From: Candidatus Heimdallarchaeota archaeon
GTDB taxonomy: Archaea > Asgardarchaeota > Heimdallarchaeia > Heimdallarchaeales > Heimdallarchaeaceae
Direction of reading: 5' to 3'
Assembly (NCBI GenBank): GCA_023132955.1
Contig: JAGLXK010000460.1
Coordinates: 1 to 33,705 of the forward strand
Length of the DNA stretch: 33,705 nt
The first letter of the stretch is position 1, and every line of letters begins with the position of its first letter. The notes below the pieces were generated by a model. That model did not search any database. It saw only the letters and a program-made list of their open reading frames with translations, and had not been told where the DNA came from. Shown here one piece after another: positions 317 to 31,198 of the stretch. A program made the translations under genes and the position numbers.

Positions 317-706
317 TCAGATATGTACGAACTTAAATCCGTACCCGATTAATCCTTCTTCTCCATTTTTTGATAAAGTTCTGAAAACCATTCGAACTTT
401 CATTCCTTCTGTAAGATCCTCAAATTTTGTATCTGTAATTTGTCCAGTTACTCTAATTCTATCATCCAATTCGATGAGAGCAACTATGTACGGAGCGTAA
501 AACATCATTTCTTTTGCAGTTTGCGATACTCTAGTAAAGTACAAAATTTTTCCAGTTTGAGCAAGTTTTACCTCTTCAATATTTCCACTAGTACAATCTG
601 GACAACGTTGAGTGATTGGAAAGTTCTTCTTTTTGCAGTCATGACATAAGACTCCTAGTGCTAGATATTTCTCCCTTCTTTCTCTCCATATTTTTGGTGG
701 CTCCAT
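317..706 (-). CDS. DUF35 zinc-ribbon/OB-fold protein, partner of thiolase and HMG-CoA synthase
   Basis: The 129-residue protein has the usual DUF35 layout: an N-terminal helix, a rubredoxin-like zinc ribbon with C21-x2-C24 and C35-x2-C38, then an OB fold (about residues 48-126). In archaea such proteins bridge acetoacetyl-CoA thiolase and HMG-CoA synthase and form a shared CoA-binding site that passes acetoacetyl-CoA between them. The start ATG shares one base with the stop of the thiolase-like gene (TAATG) and follows a strong GGAGGAGG site, so translation is coupled. It is the third gene after HMG-CoA synthase and the thiolase-like gene, which fits a three-protein complex. The family call is firm. 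The role follows from context, and the unusual thiolase next to it makes the exact reaction uncertain. Confidence 0.9.
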   Translation of the reverse strand: MEPPKIWRERREKYLALGVLCHDCKKKNFPITQRCPDCTSGNIEEVKLAQTGKILYFTRVSQTAKEMMFYAPYIVALIELDDRIRVTGQITDTKFEDLTEGMKVRMVFRTLSKNGEEGLIGYGFKFVHI

Positions 707-1887
707 TATTTATCCTCCTCCAAATTTGAAAAAATATTCACTAAAACACTTGCTCCTGTTCCCATAACATTCTGTGTTAGTCCATACTTAATGTCATCAA
801 CCTGTCTCTGGTCAGCTTCTCTTCTCATTTGTTGGACAATTTCGATAATTTGAGCAATTCCTGTTGCACCGAAAGGATCCCCTCTAGCTTTGAGACCTCC
901 ACTAGTATTTACACTAATATCTGAATTAATCTGAGTTTTTCCTTCAATCGTAGCACTGCCCCCATCTCCTTTTTGGAAGAAACCAAGATCTTCTATTGCT
1001 AGAATCTCTCCTATAGGATATGAATCATGTACTTCTGCAATACTGATATCCTTCGACGAAATTTGAGCCATTTCATAAGCCTTCTTTGAGGTAACTTGAG
1101 TTGCTAGAAGTGATGATAAGGTTTCCCTATGGTGTAGTGCAATTTTATCTGAACTTTGAGCTGAACCTACAACTTTAACCTTCCTTTCAATTTCTGTGTG
1201 GCTTTCCACAAATTCCTTGGAAGCTATTACTACAGCTGCGCTTCCATCACAATGGGTTGCTGGATCAAATCTTCCTATAGGGTCTGAGATTCTCTTTGCA
1301 TCCAGAAATCGTTTCAATGAGATTTCACGTCTGAATTGAGCGATCGGATTATTCACTCCATTTTTGTGGTTTTTGACTGGAACTGACGCTAATTGTTCCA
1401 TGGTTGTATTGAACTCCTTCATATGAGCTTGAGTCATCCAGGCATACAGACTTGTTAACGTGGCCCCTTGCTCAAATTCCCATTGATAATCTATTGTGCC
1501 CCCAAGAATTTTCTCCAGTGTACTACTATTGACAAAATCACTTAATTTCTCTGTACCTAGAATTGCAATACAGTCTAGAAGACCACTTTTTATAGCAATG
1601 AAAGCTTGATGAAATGCTCCCGCTCCACTTGCATTTCCTACATCAATTTTTGTAATCGGTATGTTCAAATTACACTCTCTACTAACTTCTGCTCCTATGT
1701 AAGACTGACCGTTCCTATTTGAAACCAATGACCCAAAATATAGACTCTGAATCAGATCCTTGCTAATCTTTGCATCTTGAATAGCTTTAGATAGAGCCTG
1801 TGATGCACTGGAACTAGGATTCAGTTCATAGTGCTCACCAAATTTAGTTATACCATATCCTATAACATAGACTTCTCTTTTACTCAT
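706..1887 (-). CDS. SCP2-type thiolase-like protein lacking catalytic residues
   Basis: The 393-residue protein has the length and fold signature of the archaeal SCP2-like thiolases that make acetoacetyl-CoA for the mevalonate pathway, and it sits between HMG-CoA synthase and DUF35 as expected. However, the nucleophile position (family motif C-A-S-G) reads N85-A-S-G. The HDCF motif reads HDSY (H288, S289), and the GHP motif reads GDP (D337). Only H288 of the usual catalytic set is kept. The rest of the fold motifs (CDGSAAVV at 213-220, NTSGGLKARG, FGATG) are intact, so this is a maintained gene and not a decayed one. GAGGTGA overlaps the stop of the upstream synthase gene and serves this ATG. 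It may be a structural partner or carry out another reaction, as Ltp2-type thiolase-fold aldolases with DUF35 partners do. Confidence 0.85.
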   Translation of the reverse strand: MSKREVYVIGYGITKFGEHYELNPSSSASQALSKAIQDAKISKDLIQSLYFGSLVSNRNGQSYIGAEVSRECNLNIPITKIDVGNASGAGAFHQAFIAIKSGLLDCIAILGTEKLSDFVNSSTLEKILGGTIDYQWEFEQGATLTSLYAWMTQAHMKEFNTTMEQLASVPVKNHKNGVNNPIAQFRREISLKRFLDAKRISDPIGRFDPATHCDGSAAVVIASKEFVESHTEIERKVKVVGSAQSSDKIALHHRETLSSLLATQVTSKKAYEMAQISSKDISIAEVHDSYPIGEILAIEDLGFFQKGDGGSATIEGKTQINSDISVNTSGGLKARGDPFGATGIAQIIEIVQQMRREADQRQVDDIKYGLTQNVMGTGASVLVNIFSNLEEDK

Positions 1888-1891
1888 ATTA

Positions 1892-2932
1892 TCACCTCAA
1901 TATCCCCTTGTATCTAGAATACTTACCATAGTTAATTTCTTCCTTGTTGTTCACATAATATTCAACTGTTAGTGGATATGATTTGAGTTCTTCAATCTCA
2001 TCAGTAATTGAAAATGAAAATGCATCACTTCCAGCGCCACTGCCATATGAAGTCATAAATACTCTATCTCCTGGGTTGGAATTATTAAGAATATGTGCTA
2101 ATCCTAGCATTGATGAAGCGGAATATGCATTTCCAATGTTCTTGCATATTAAACTGATATCGATTTGGTCAGTTGTAAAACCAAGCATTTTTGCAACTGT
2201 ATGTGGAAACTTAGTATTAGGTTGATGAAATGTAACATGGTTATAATCTGAAGGTTTTGTTCCAAGTTCTTCCATTAATCCTTTGGAAGCATCAACAATA
2301 TGTTGAAAGTATGCTGGTTGTCCTGTAAATCTATTCCCATGAGAAGGAAATACTGCACCTTCTCTTCTCCAAAAGTCTGGTGTATCTGTAGTGATTGAAT
2401 ACGTCCCCTCTAGCTCTGCTACAACTCTCTCCTTACCAATTAGAAAAGCTGCACTTCCAGCTCCAGCTGTATATTCTAGAGGATCTCTTGGTTTAGCTTG
2501 GCTGTCATCTGAACCTATAGCTAATCCAAATTTTATCATTTCAGATTTAACTAATCCAAAACACATTTGCATCCCAGCAGTTCCAGCTTTACATGCAAAT
2601 TCCAAATCTGCAGCAGTTAATTCCTTTTCAGCATCAATAGCTGCTGCGACAATTGTAGCTGTAGGTTTAACTGCATAAGGGTGAGATTCGCTCCCAACAT
2701 AGATTGCACCTATGTCTTTAGGATTCCCTTTCCATCGGCTTATTGTATTTCTTGCTGCTTCAACAGACATCGTAGCTACATCTTCATCCGGTCCAAGAAC
2801 TGATTTACTAAAAACCTGTAATTGTGAGATAATTTCACTTGGATCATCATCCCAAACCTTAGCTATCTCCTCAATAGATATACGATATCTAGGGATATAC
2901 GAACCATAGGATACTATACCTAATTTACTCAT
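1892..2932 (-). CDS. Hydroxymethylglutaryl-CoA synthase, archaeal type
   Basis: The enzyme condenses acetyl-CoA with acetoacetyl-CoA to HMG-CoA, the committed route to mevalonate and archaeal isoprenoid lipids. The 346 residues match the family length. The nucleophile C114 lies in EFACKAGTAG, the histidine H236 in TFHQPN, and a likely catalytic Glu at 82 in GSESHP; the glycine-rich YTAGAGSAAF is also present. I place the start at 2932 because AAGG stands seven bases before this ATG; an in-frame ATG at 2959 would add nine residues and lacks such a site. It is the first gene of the triad with the thiolase-like and DUF35 genes, with four bases between its stop and the next start. An AT-rich 126-bp gap separates it from grpE, so it probably has its own promoter. 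Confidence 0.95.
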   Translation of the reverse strand: MSKLGIVSYGSYIPRYRISIEEIAKVWDDDPSEIISQLQVFSKSVLGPDEDVATMSVEAARNTISRWKGNPKDIGAIYVGSESHPYAVKPTATIVAAAIDAEKELTAADLEFACKAGTAGMQMCFGLVKSEMIKFGLAIGSDDSQAKPRDPLEYTAGAGSAAFLIGKERVVAELEGTYSITTDTPDFWRREGAVFPSHGNRFTGQPAYFQHIVDASKGLMEELGTKPSDYNHVTFHQPNTKFPHTVAKMLGFTTDQIDISLICKNIGNAYSASSMLGLAHILNNSNPGDRVFMTSYGSGAGSDAFSFSITDEIEELKSYPLTVEYYVNNKEEINYGKYSRYKGILR

Positions 2933-3058
2933 GATAATACCTTGAAAGAGTTTATTCATTATAGCTGTAATAGAAACTATAAGTTAATTCTAATCTTTAC
3001 TATCATATTGATAATCAAACCATTAATTAAAATTTCCTACAAAGATATGAAATAAAAC

Positions 3059-14387: not shown

Positions 14388-14420
14388 AAATACGTAAAAA
14401 TCTTGGCGGCTAGATATAAG

Positions 14421-15188
14421 ATGTCAAGCAGTTTAAAAATAAAAGATATTTTCAAAGTAGATGGTTCTGGAATACCGTATCTAAAATTGGTTATATATGG
14501 ACCTTCATTGTCAGGTAAAACAAGTATGTTAACAGTCTATAATGTTCTAAGGAAAGTTGAAGATCCTGAAACAATCTATTCTTCCTTAAAGAAGATAGAT
14601 GACCCTAGTGGTAGAACAATCTTTTATGATCAAAGTACCTTTGAATTACCAAAAGGACAAGGCGTAAGTGTTCCAAAGCTAAGATACCAAGTTTGGACAG
14701 TAGCTGGTCAGAAAAGACATTATATTCAAAGAAAAGTTGTTCTTGAGGGTGCTGACGGATTGATATTTATGTTCGATCCCAGCAAAAATATGTGGGATGA
14801 CAATGTAGAAAGCCTTGTTGAGCTCATAGCCCTTAAGGGAGATATCTTAGGAAAATCCTTGCCATTCTTAATCGTTCTGAATAAGATTGATCTTCCTCCT
14901 GAAGAGCGTACTCCTACAGATAAGTTTCTTGATTTATTAATTGAAAAGAAACTTGCAGCTAATAAAGGAGAAGCCTACATGCGAGTAATTGAAACATCTT
15001 GTCTTCAAGCTAGAAATGAGTTGATGACTCTTTTAAGAAGTCCTGATATAAAATCAATGCTTGATGAATATGGACGTCTTAAAAAAGGAGCTAGACCTTT
15101 AAGTGTTCAAAAAACTGCTCAGCCAATTGAGCAATTAACACGAGAAATAATTATTCACCGAGTTAAATCTGCTAAAAGCGAATCTTAA
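14421..15188 (+). CDS. MglA/Arf-like small GTPase, 255 residues
   Basis: The G1 loop GPSLSGKTS is at residues 27-35, G3 is WTVAGQ (92-97), G4 is NKID (154-157), and G5 lies in ETSCL near 193. The G3 form T-V-x-G-Q, without the Ras-type Asp, is that of MglA-like GTPases, which control polarity in bacteria and are numerous in Asgard archaea. Two features lengthen the protein beyond the usual 190 residues: an insertion between G1 and G3 and a C-terminal helix of about 50 residues. Start ATG 14421 matches the start of the paralogue at 26869; an in-frame TTG at 14403 has no ribosome site. The glutamine that helps hydrolysis is present. A nuclease-like gene and a coiled-coil gene follow on the same strand. 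Confidence 0.87.
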   Translation: MSSSLKIKDIFKVDGSGIPYLKLVIYGPSLSGKTSMLTVYNVLRKVEDPETIYSSLKKIDDPSGRTIFYDQSTFELPKGQGVSVPKLRYQVWTVAGQKRHYIQRKVVLEGADGLIFMFDPSKNMWDDNVESLVELIALKGDILGKSLPFLIVLNKIDLPPEERTPTDKFLDLLIEKKLAANKGEAYMRVIETSCLQARNELMTLLRSPDIKSMLDEYGRLKKGARPLSVQKTAQPIEQLTREIIIHRVKSAKSES

Positions 15189-26868: not shown

Positions 26869-27627
26869 ATGAGTCAACTAGAGTTATCTGACCTTTTTTC
26901 AGTTGATAGGGAAGGAAAACCAACAATTAAGATAGTTCTGTTTGGACCTCCGATGAGTGGTAAAACAAGCATGTTGACAGTTTTCAATGCACTCAGAAGA
27001 ATGGAGAATCCAAAAACTATTGTTTCGGCATTAACAAAAATACAAGATGATTCAGGTCGTACAGTATTTTTTGATCAAGGCGTCTTTCAAACACCTCCAT
27101 TTAAAGGAAATAATTTTGATAGATTGCGATACCAACTCTGGACAGTTCCTGGAGAAGAAAGACACAAAGTTCAGAGAGATATTGTCATGAAAGGTGTCGA
27201 TGCAGTTATTCTATTTTTGAACTTCGAAAAAGCAGCAAAGGAGCAAAATGAAGCAATTATTAAGGAAGCTAAGGAAATAGTAGGTGAGAAATTTGGATCC
27301 GAGATTCCTGTAGTTGCTTATATCAACAAATCTGATTTACCTGCTGAAGAAAGACTTGATAAGAGAGATATTATCCAAAATCTACTTGATGAAGGCGCCA
27401 TTCATAGTGATAAAGCCGCAAACTTAGTATTAACTGGAAGCTGCTTAAATGCAAGGAATGAATTACTTTCTATCCTAACATCTCCAAAAAGAGATGAGCA
27501 TTTTGATGATAGTAATAGATTGAGAATAGACAAGAGACCAGATTCAGTTTGGTTGATTGTTAAACCTATTCAAAAACTCACTCAGTTAGCTGTAGAACAA
27601 AGATTGGAATACGTCCAGAACATCTGA
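26869..27627 (+). CDS. MglA/Arf-like small GTPase, second copy
   Basis: The 252-residue protein is a paralogue of the GTPase at 14421 and aligns with it from the first residue. G1 is GPPMSGKTS (26-34), G3 is WTVPGE (91-96) and G4 is NKSD (153-156), with GSCLNARNEL for the G5 region. The G3 glutamine that aids hydrolysis in MglA and Ras families is Glu here, so intrinsic hydrolysis may be slow or depend on a partner. The insertion between G1 and G3 and the C-terminal helix are shared with the first copy. It stands alone, with its own promoter and no coiled-coil neighbour. Confidence 0.87.
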   Translation: MSQLELSDLFSVDREGKPTIKIVLFGPPMSGKTSMLTVFNALRRMENPKTIVSALTKIQDDSGRTVFFDQGVFQTPPFKGNNFDRLRYQLWTVPGEERHKVQRDIVMKGVDAVILFLNFEKAAKEQNEAIIKEAKEIVGEKFGSEIPVVAYINKSDLPAEERLDKRDIIQNLLDEGAIHSDKAANLVLTGSCLNARNELLSILTSPKRDEHFDDSNRLRIDKRPDSVWLIVKPIQKLTQLAVEQRLEYVQNI

Positions 27628-28560: not shown

Positions 28561-28592
28561 GAAATCATGAGATAAAAACTGTGGTGAAAAAT

Positions 28593-29642
28593 ATGCCTAT
28601 CGCGCCCATGACAAATGCTGTTGGAATTGATTTAGGAACAAGTACAATAAAACTTACTTCAGGAGACAATAAGTATAGGATTCCTTCTGTTATAGGAACA
28701 CCTAATCCTGGTTGGCAAGGTATGTCTTCTGATAAAAGTTGGCTAAACAATCTTATCATAGAAGATGCAAAAGGACAAGAGGTTTACATAGGTGAACTAG
28801 CTAGGCTGCAAAGTGAGATTAGAAAGCCTTTAGCTTCAGAAGGAAAGATGAAATCAATTCAAAATAGTCTTCTGGCTTTGAAAGCTATTTTGAGTCTTAT
28901 TATGAAATCCAGTTATGAACAATTTGTAGTTGCTACAGGTGTTCCCATTGCAACTGGCGTTAATGAGAGTAAGGAACTAAGTAGAGGTCTCAAAGGAACT
29001 CACGAAATTAAGGTTCGAAATGATGCTACTGGTGAATCAAAGCAGATGAAAATCTTAATTGAGCAAGTATTCATTGCACCAGAACCTTACGGAACTTACT
29101 GGCACACATTAAAAACAAGCGGTGTTCAAACTGCAGTAGATTCGATAATTGTAGATGTTGGTCACGGAACTACTGACATTCTATGTATGTATAAAGGTAA
29201 CATGATGAGAGCTGCATCAGGTACTTTAGAAGAAGCTGTAGACAGTTTAACAAGTGCTCTATCTAGAGCAATTCAAGAAAAAGCTGGTAAAATCATACGA
29301 CCATTTGATTTAATGACAGCTATAGAACAAGGTAAGAAAAATATTCTAGTTGGTGGAAAAGCTCTAGATATTACCTCAGCAATGGATCAAGCAGTTACTT
29401 CTATTGCTGACGTGATTGTTGATGAAAGCAATCGGCTTCTAAACAATCTTCCTCCTGATGCCTGGATCGAGAAAGTTATTGTCTGTGGTGGAGGAGCATA
29501 TGTCTTTGGTGATTATCTAAAACAAGCCTTCTTTGAAGCGAACATAGTTAAGAACACCAATGAAGTATTGCAACCAACTGATGCTGTGATGTCAAACGCT
29601 TTAGGTTTTGAGCAAATCGCTCTAACAAAATTAAAGAAATAA
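28593..29642 (+). CDS. Actin-like ATPase of the ParM/Ta0583 group
   Basis: The 349-residue protein has the actin-fold signatures in order: phosphate-1 AVGIDLGTSTIKL (about residues 9-21), phosphate-2 IIVDVGHGTTDIL (about 185-197), and the adenosine loop VIVCGGGAYVFGDYL (about 298-312). The region following phosphate-1 matches the N-terminal domain of ParM-like archaeal and plasmid actins more than MreB, FtsA, crenactin or eukaryotic-type actin. Such proteins form ATP-driven filaments that segregate DNA or shape cells. No partner (ParR-like adaptor or centromere repeat) is adjacent. ATG 28593 follows GGTGA by five bases; two GTG codons at 28581 and 28584 overlap that site. Confidence 0.85.
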   Translation: MPIAPMTNAVGIDLGTSTIKLTSGDNKYRIPSVIGTPNPGWQGMSSDKSWLNNLIIEDAKGQEVYIGELARLQSEIRKPLASEGKMKSIQNSLLALKAILSLIMKSSYEQFVVATGVPIATGVNESKELSRGLKGTHEIKVRNDATGESKQMKILIEQVFIAPEPYGTYWHTLKTSGVQTAVDSIIVDVGHGTTDILCMYKGNMMRAASGTLEEAVDSLTSALSRAIQEKAGKIIRPFDLMTAIEQGKKNILVGGKALDITSAMDQAVTSIADVIVDESNRLLNNLPPDAWIEKVIVCGGGAYVFGDYLKQAFFEANIVKNTNEVLQPTDAVMSNALGFEQIALTKLKK

Positions 29643-29670: not shown

Positions 29671-30456
29671 TTATTCTTTCACATCTTTTTTAGGTCCCAA
29701 TTTCAAATTTTTATCAAGTTTCATAGCATAACCTGGACCCGCAATAAGATAAATTATCATTAGAATTGCAATACCATAAGCAGGATAAACCATCCAATTT
29801 GGATTGAAAGGAAGTACAGCAAAAAGAACAACACACAGTGTAGTAGATACTATCCAAAACATTTCAAATTTTGTGGGTACTCCCTTAAAGGAGGGAAATG
29901 GGATTTTTGATAACATGAATCCTGAAATTATTACTGTCGATAACATAATTACCCATTGTTCTGTGTATGGAAAAATAACTAAACAAGCAACAACCATCCC
30001 TGCAAATGGACTAGGCAGTCCATTAAAATAAGGTGTATAAAGTGGATCTCGCTTAACGAAACGATAAAGTCTAAACCATACTGCGCCTAAATAAACTAAC
30101 CCTGTGAAAATGCCTGCAACAATATTCCATGTTTGAATAGACCAAGAAGCAACTGTGTAACCCAAGTATATAGCTGGAAAGATTCCAAAAGAAATAGAAT
30201 CCACAATTGTATCAATATCAACAGCCAATTTTCTACTGCCGCTTATTCTTGCTAATTTTCCATCTGCAAAATCAAATATAGAACATAATGCTATTATTTT
30301 TGCAAACCAATAGTTAAAATCTGTTGGATTAATAAAAGTGAAAACAATTCCAATAATTGCCAGAATCAAGCTTGAAAAAGTAAGGAAATTTGCCAAAATC
30401 CAAGCTGTCTTTTTTATCCAGTTTTTTTGCAGAAATGTTACGTCTTGCCATTCCAT
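29671..30456 (-). CDS. CDP-alcohol phosphatidyltransferase, serine synthase type
   Basis: The 261-residue integral membrane enzyme has the catalytic motif start DFADGKLAR (near residues 62-70) and its end DTIVDSISFG, with about seven hydrophobic segments. With a decarboxylase gene immediately upstream it most likely joins serine to CDP-archaeol (archaetidylserine synthase) or CDP-diacylglycerol. The family motif is D-x2-D-G-x2-A-R-x8-G-x3-D-x3-D. Here the glycine is replaced (LAVDID) and the spacing is one residue shorter, an uncommon variant. The acidic residues are kept, so activity is likely. Its ATG directly follows the stop of the decarboxylase gene with no spacer. A short C-terminal lysine-rich tail follows. 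Confidence 0.85.
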   Translation of the reverse strand: MEWQDVTFLQKNWIKKTAWILANFLTFSSLILAIIGIVFTFINPTDFNYWFAKIIALCSIFDFADGKLARISGSRKLAVDIDTIVDSISFGIFPAIYLGYTVASWSIQTWNIVAGIFTGLVYLGAVWFRLYRFVKRDPLYTPYFNGLPSPFAGMVVACLVIFPYTEQWVIMLSTVIISGFMLSKIPFPSFKGVPTKFEMFWIVSTTLCVVLFAVLPFNPNWMVYPAYGIAILMIIYLIAGPGYAMKLDKNLKLGPKKDVKE

Positions 30457-31107
30457 TTAATCACATTCAGCTAACACTGTCTTCCCAGCTCTTACTACAT
30501 CAGATATACCTATCTTAAATTTAAACTTTTTATCGCTTTTGATTTCTAAACTTGTTAGTGAACCAAACCTGATGGTTCCTATTACTTCCCCTTGTTTTAC
30601 GCTATCTCCACCCTTAACATAAGCAACTGTTCTTCTTGCATAGATACCCGAAATCTGAGTTACAACTGCATTAATGTTTCCTACTTCATCAATAATTTCT
30701 ATCTTATTCCTCTGGTTTTTCTTTGCATAATTTGGAAAATATGCAGGCCAATGAGCCCCCTTCTTGAATACTGTTTTTGTTACTTTTCCTTTAATTGGAC
30801 TTCTTGTCATATGAACATCAAATGGTGACATTCTAATTACACAATAGATTATTCCTTCTTTTTCTTCCACTTCCATAATTCTTCCATCAGCTGGAGCTAG
30901 AATTTTTTTGATGTCTATACCAAAGAACCTTTCAGGATCTCTAAAACTCCAAATAATGAAAGAACTTGCTATTATAATTAAGCCGAGTATAATAAAATGC
31001 CAATAGAAGCTGGTTAGATACCATATTACAAATGATAAAACGAAACATAGAGCTGAAAAAGCTAGTAAAAACAAAACAATGAACTTTGTTCCTTTTGCTA
31101 TAGTCAT
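30457..31107 (-). CDS. Phosphatidylserine/archaetidylserine decarboxylase
   Basis: The 216-residue proenzyme has two N-terminal hydrophobic segments (about residues 8-30 and 35-54) and the family features APADGRI (71-77), FDVHMTRSP (96-104) and the cleavage site RFGS with S183. That serine becomes the pyruvoyl cofactor when the chain splits between G182 and S183. The product is the ethanolamine head group. The short size and site place it with the archaeal-type and Psd-like short enzymes. ATG 31107 has GAGG seven bases upstream; a TTG at 31119 would overlap this site. It precedes the synthase gene, so both steps of serine-to-ethanolamine lipid formation are in one transcript. Confidence 0.92.
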   Translation of the reverse strand: MTIAKGTKFIVLFLLAFSALCFVLSFVIWYLTSFYWHFIILGLIIIASSFIIWSFRDPERFFGIDIKKILAPADGRIMEVEEKEGIIYCVIRMSPFDVHMTRSPIKGKVTKTVFKKGAHWPAYFPNYAKKNQRNKIEIIDEVGNINAVVTQISGIYARRTVAYVKGGDSVKQGEVIGTIRFGSLTSLEIKSDKKFKFKIGISDVVRAGKTVLAECD

Positions 31108-31198
31108 TTGAATCCTCAAACTTCCCTTGTGTAACTAATCTCGTGAGAATCTCAAGAGGATTAAAGAAAACAGTGTTAAAAATGTTTGCCAAAGGGAG

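Follow-up and report, generated by a model that had tools for sequence, protein, structure and literature searches.

A thiolase homologue lacking the nucleophilic cysteine in the HMG-CoA synthase operon of Heimdallarchaeaceae is probably a pseudo-thiolase subunit

The window analysed here, a stretch of 33,705 nucleotides from the fragmented MAG of Candidatus Heimdallarchaeota archaeon (GCA_023132955.1, contig JAGLXK010000460.1), carries on its minus strand a three-gene operon encoding an archaeal HMG-CoA synthase (HMGS; 1892..2959), a Cys-less SCP2-type thiolase homologue of 393 amino acids (706..1887) and a DUF35 / OB-fold Zn-ribbon protein (317..706; PF01796). The genes are tightly packed in the order HMGS, a 4-bp gap, thiolase homologue and DUF35, the last sharing 1 base with the stop codon of the thiolase gene, which is the arrangement of the 6ESQ-type operon. 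The early committed steps in archaeal membrane-lipid synthesis are commonly pictured as the work of a single channelled complex: acetoacetyl-CoA is formed by the thiolase and passed on to HMGS. The HMGS of the window scored over the cut-offs of NCBIfam NF003274 and TIGR00748, and its catalytic Glu/Cys/His motifs are whole (GSES, FACKAG, FHQPN). In the profile search the thiolase homologue scored over cut-off for PF00108, PF22691 and PF02803 and slightly below the cut-off of NF004720 (407 vs 420). It thus has the fold and family profile of an SCP2-type acetoacetyl-CoA thiolase, while the nucleophilic Cys and the His of GHP that belong to such an enzyme are missing. Elsewhere in the window we observed an actin-like protein with ALP_N and archaeal MreB-like C-terminal domains (28581-29642, plus strand), a CDP-alcohol phosphatidyltransferase that adjoins a phosphatidylserine decarboxylase gene (29671-31119, minus strand), and two similar-looking GTPase-like proteins on the plus strand, one with weak Ras/Roc matches (14403-15188) and one left without a Pfam match at the threshold applied (26869-27627).

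Alignment to 6ESQ and 7YVY placed Asn85 (codon AAT, 1633..1635, minus strand) on the Cys of CASG, Ser289 (codon TCA, 1021-1023, minus strand) on the third residue of HDCF/HDAF and Asp337 (codon GAT, 877..879, minus strand) on the His of GHP/GHA. At the second of these sites HDS replaces HDC (1021..1029, minus strand), with His287 (codon CAT, 1027-1029, minus strand) and Asp288 retained. In the thiolase subunit of M. thermolithotrophicus the active residue is Cys85 (PMC6392133). The replacement of Cys85, of the HDCF Cys and of the GHP His by N85, S289 and D337, as read in the initial annotation, is thus borne out by the codons and by both structures. Its further statement that three of four catalytic residues are lost is literally right, but the weight it gave to S289 is not: Ser or Ala also occupies this position in relatives whose Cys is intact. 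HMGS-linked relatives that keep both Cys85 and His337 carry S, A, T or Y at site 289, and Ser289 was therefore rejected as a mark of lost catalysis. The true catalytic loss is that of Cys85.

The gene is present in 21 of 23 genomes of the Heimdallarchaeaceae, a family that includes the complete genome of Ca. Heimdallarchaeum endolithica PR6 and lies in an archaeal class often placed near eukaryotes. All copies are open frames without stops, with 57-96% identity to the window copy. Site 85 is Asn in 19 copies, Thr in two and Cys in none, site 337 is Asp in all 21, and site 289 holds Ser 20 times and Ala once; His287 is invariant. By the Nei-Gojobori method dN/dS was 0.07-0.16 in most family pairs and 0.21 in the most distant pair, in the range of the values for HMGS and DUF35. 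That the variant stems from a sequencing, assembly or frameshift error, or that the gene is a pseudogene in decay, has next to no chance of being true: the 21 copies agree, their frames are open and dN/dS is mostly 0.07-0.16, and on these grounds we rejected it. Same-lineage relatives with the normal Cys and His, which would have pointed to a local error, do not occur among the family copies. A conserved fold, lost catalytic residues and purifying selection, the marks of a pseudoenzyme, are thus found together in this protein.

We also considered whether the protein is an ordinary thiolase that uses another Cys or a shifted residue as nucleophile. The candidate would be Cys213, which is invariant in the family; however, it lies in a CDGSAA segment where 6ESQ has Ser and 7YVY has Cys, both of them beside the usual Cys, and in the wider set most proteins have Ser there. 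We saw no other conserved nucleophile at the homologue's active site, and a relocated nucleophile, Cys213 in particular, is highly improbable.

The loss of the Cys extends far beyond the window's family. Among the families compared, coded f1-f29 with f1 being the Heimdallarchaeaceae, the HMGS-linked thiolase of the same class is Cys-less in f1, f3, f4 and f6 and canonical in f7, and elsewhere in the Asgard phylum f10, f25 and f27 have a Cys-less copy as well. Besides the Heimdallarchaeaceae, eight Asgard families have a Cys-less HMGS-linked thiolase. The families f13 and f20 each carry two HMGS-thiolase-DUF35 operons, the first with the Cys and the second without it; in the paired operons L176/L180, L179/L183 and L184/L185 of these families the thiolase site is Cys in one and Asp in the other. 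A scan of named genomes by the GDP pattern, and hence biased, yielded roughly 45 Thermoplasmatota records plus a single Chloroflexi record with the GASG/HD[NS]/GDP operon; the same biased scan returned GDP forms in Njordarchaeota with no HMGS within 3 kb flanks. In a less biased sample of 118 genomes drawn evenly from the Thermoplasmatota, 70 HMGS-linked loci were read, 24 with the Cys and 46 without it, the replacement being G, D, E, S or T. The catalytic motifs of HMGS are whole in the Cys-less operons read. The assumption in the initial annotation that the operon everywhere else starts lipid synthesis is therefore wrong, as Cys-less copies are common in it in Asgard archaea and Thermoplasmatota. 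Our search of the open-access literature, itself incomplete, found no paper on this Cys-less variant. As a separate observation, most genomes of f5 (G036-G047) gave no archaeal HMGS match at E 1e-50, most have HMGR, and many carry a PASG thiolase-like protein unlinked to HMGS.

A tree of 154 proteins was built with the three sites left out, by a quick method that leaves the deep joins uncertain. Among the 151 HMGS-linked rows it requires no fewer than 10 switches between Cys and non-Cys, always within the same operon type, counts that give no direction of change; an earlier tree of 102 rows had given 8. The window family clusters with the Cys-less clade of f3 and f4 (SH-aLRT 95), which makes it probable that the Cys was lost before the family arose. 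An exchange of the GDP form between Heimdallarchaeaceae and Thermoplasmatota was unsupported, the trees separating the two and placing the family beside f3 and f4. Furthermore, we set 55 HMGS-linked proteins with the Cys against 96 without it, weighting by similarity, over 384 columns. The largest drop in conservation was at site 85, which follows from the definition of the groups, and site 337 ranked fifth of the 384 columns, while mean conservation elsewhere was nearly equal (0.607 in Cys-keeping vs 0.591 in Cys-less proteins). His337 is present in all Cys-keeping proteins but one, which has N; of the Cys-less proteins roughly half retain it. The Cys is replaced by G, D, E, S, N or T and, once it is gone, His337 gives way to D, N, Y, Q, A, R or F. 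Such varied residues at sites 85 and 337, with conservation elsewhere, are what is expected of a relaxed active site, and it looks from this comparison as if the active site decays after the loss of the Cys while the rest of the protein is held.

If the subunit does not make acetoacetyl-CoA, another enzyme would have to do so. The initial annotation had proposed that another thiolase supplies it, and the remaining Cys-less lineages that were tested agree with this. In f3, f4, f6, f10, f25 and f27 we read a canonical second thiolase, those of Njordarchaeota are of the SCP2 type, and a bacterial-type thiolase scoring >300 bits occurred in all 23 Thermoplasmatota and Chloroflexi genomes tested, a plain co-occurrence observed among Cys-less genomes. 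A pattern search located the CxSG, GHP and CxGGG motifs in 22 of 23 fetched bacterial-type copies, one copy remaining unmatched, and NEAF was missed by a simple pattern in three of the fetched thiolases. The proposal fails in the window's own group. Neither a protein search nor PF00108 found a second thiolase in the window genome, and in 22 of the 23 genomes of the family PF00108 gave, besides partial ketosynthase-type matches in very long ORFs, no other thiolase over cut-off. The family exception is H. endolithica, which has a second, canonical thiolase (CASG/HDCF/GHP). A chance miss in all 22 genomes is not credible, because they are 78-92% complete. Of the 21 family genomes drawn for an HMGR search, 18 have HMGR, the window genome among them.

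Several matches from these searches proved to be other proteins. Most Heimdallarchaeaceae genomes encode a very long PKS-like protein, which is unusual for archaea; a partial copy in the window genome (G000:C510; L112:1-5940, minus strand) has ketosynthase, acyltransferase and nitronate-monooxygenase-like domains, and two relatives have PKS-like ORFs of 3,371 and 3,515 amino acids (L362:4016-14131 and L363:1390-11937). The weak C510 matches, tried as a second thiolase of the window genome, belong to the ketosynthase of this PKS-like protein. A KAS III (NphT7-like) acetoacetyl-CoA synthase was likewise rejected, since the PF08545 matches examined in the family are a type III PKS-like protein, the PKS-like giants and the H. 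endolithica thiolase. The type III polyketide synthase-like protein (L358:9114-10223, minus strand; 369 amino acids) has chalcone/stilbene synthase domains and resembles DpgA well below the model cut-off, and several family genomes have ORFs of similar length. In 22 of the 23 family genomes we found a lone gene for an Hbd-type 3-hydroxybutyryl-CoA dehydrogenase, as at L350:1190-2050 (plus strand); its flanking genes are conserved, with a DNA polymerase B gene nearby. As a guess, Hbd could form acetoacetyl-CoA from 3-hydroxybutyryl-CoA, and it is named as a candidate source only, since no beta-oxidation-type neighbourhood was present where examined.

The missing second thiolase is also what speaks for an enzyme of a new kind. 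The Heimdallarchaeaceae protein might still form acetoacetyl-CoA, or another C-C bond, without an acyl-Cys, for instance by direct or decarboxylative condensation using His287, Asp337 and an oxyanion hole. It is the sole thiolase in 22 of the 23 family genomes, the ketosynthase-type matches aside, HMGR is present, His287 and Asp288 are kept, and the invariant Asp337 and nearly invariant Asn85, more fixed than free drift suggests, are the main reason for entertaining a new activity. These same two points, the lack of another thiolase and the fixed residues, count against a pseudo-thiolase. On the other side, where a separate thiolase exists the subunit has lost the Cys too, and its residues vary between lineages; no replacement nucleophile was seen at the active site, and the family sits within a Cys-less clade together with f3 and f4; for this last reason the loss of the Cys probably predates the loss of the second thiolase. 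A Cys-free enzyme is thus unlikely, and so the new-enzyme half of the initial annotation's proposal of a scaffold or a new enzyme is the less supported one. Its most specific form, proposed because no other thiolase remains in 22 genomes, is that Heimdallarchaeaceae make acetoacetyl-CoA inside the HMGS complex by a Cys-free thiolase-fold enzyme (Asn85, His287, Asp337) with no acyl-enzyme, and this we consider quite doubtful.

The better supported half of that proposal is the scaffold: the gene probably encodes a pseudo-thiolase kept as a CoA-binding and assembly subunit and fed with acetoacetyl-CoA made elsewhere. The AF2 model of the window thiolase homologue (pLDDT 92.3) has 6esq_A as its best PDB match (TM 0.94, rmsd 1.4, 36% identity). 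In 6ESQ, CoA is held at the interface by residues of all three proteins, and in PhlABC the HMGS-like PhlA has lost its Cys and Glu and is yet required, which shows that assembly can depend on a condensing subunit that is catalytically dead (PMC6392133). From this three-protein CoA site and the PhlABC precedent we infer that HMGS relies on the Cys-less subunit to complete its CoA site and its assembly; complex formation, the absence of thiolase activity, the structural role and the entry of free acetoacetyl-CoA all have this standing. Retention of the pseudo-thiolase would most likely reflect a need of HMGS and DUF35 for it, both in assembly and at the CoA site common to all three; acetoacetyl-CoA from another enzyme would enter this site, where condensation with acetyl-CoA by the intact HMGS would give the HMG-CoA of the mevalonate pathway.

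If the subunit is inactive in many Thermoplasmatota and several Asgard lineages, the picture of a channelled complex fails there, the complex must take acetoacetyl-CoA from outside, and genes of this operon annotated as acetyl-CoA acetyltransferase are in many cases mislabelled. Moreover, the many natural cases of nucleophile loss, including f13 and f20 with both versions, could be used to learn what the thiolase subunit does for HMGS.

Among known systems, the 6ESQ complex has the same three proteins as the window and the closest thiolase subunit in fold; its thiolase has Cys85, HDCF and the His of GHA where Asn, Ser and Asp stand in the window protein. ST0096 of Sulfolobus tokodaii (4YZO) is another archaeal thiolase-like protein with no Cys nucleophile and a good fold match, but it keeps GHP and has HDMA; we know of no function for it. 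The trypanosomal SCP2-thiolase-like protein TbSLP (5AB6, 5AB7), known from structures with acetoacetyl-CoA and malonyl-CoA and as a very slow malonyl-CoA decarboxylase, is also thiolase-like, but it has 21% identity and no associated DUF35. The Ltp2-ChsH2(DUF35) aldolase and Sal share with the window a thiolase fold, a DUF35 partner and a rebuilt active site, but have their catalytic Tyr in YDHF or YDCY where the window family has His (PMC12329534). An aldolase of this type working with DUF35 would fit a thiolase fold without the Cys nucleophile and with such a partner, and 6ok1 is among the fold matches, although far below 6esq (TM 0.84 vs 0.94). It is nevertheless very unlikely, as the Tyr of the YD[HC][FY] motif, needed at its first position, is replaced throughout the window family by the invariant His287 and the operon carries HMGS and no hydratase; the comparison with Ltp2 drawn in the initial annotation is accordingly weak. 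PhlABC, the Friedel-Crafts acylase (5M3K), combines like the window HMGS-like, thiolase-like and DUF35 proteins, with one condensing subunit catalytically dead yet required (PMC6392133). There the dead subunit is the HMGS-like PhlA and the thiolase-like PhlC is active, whereas in the arrangement proposed for the window these roles would be reversed, with a normal HMGS as the partner of the pseudo-thiolase.
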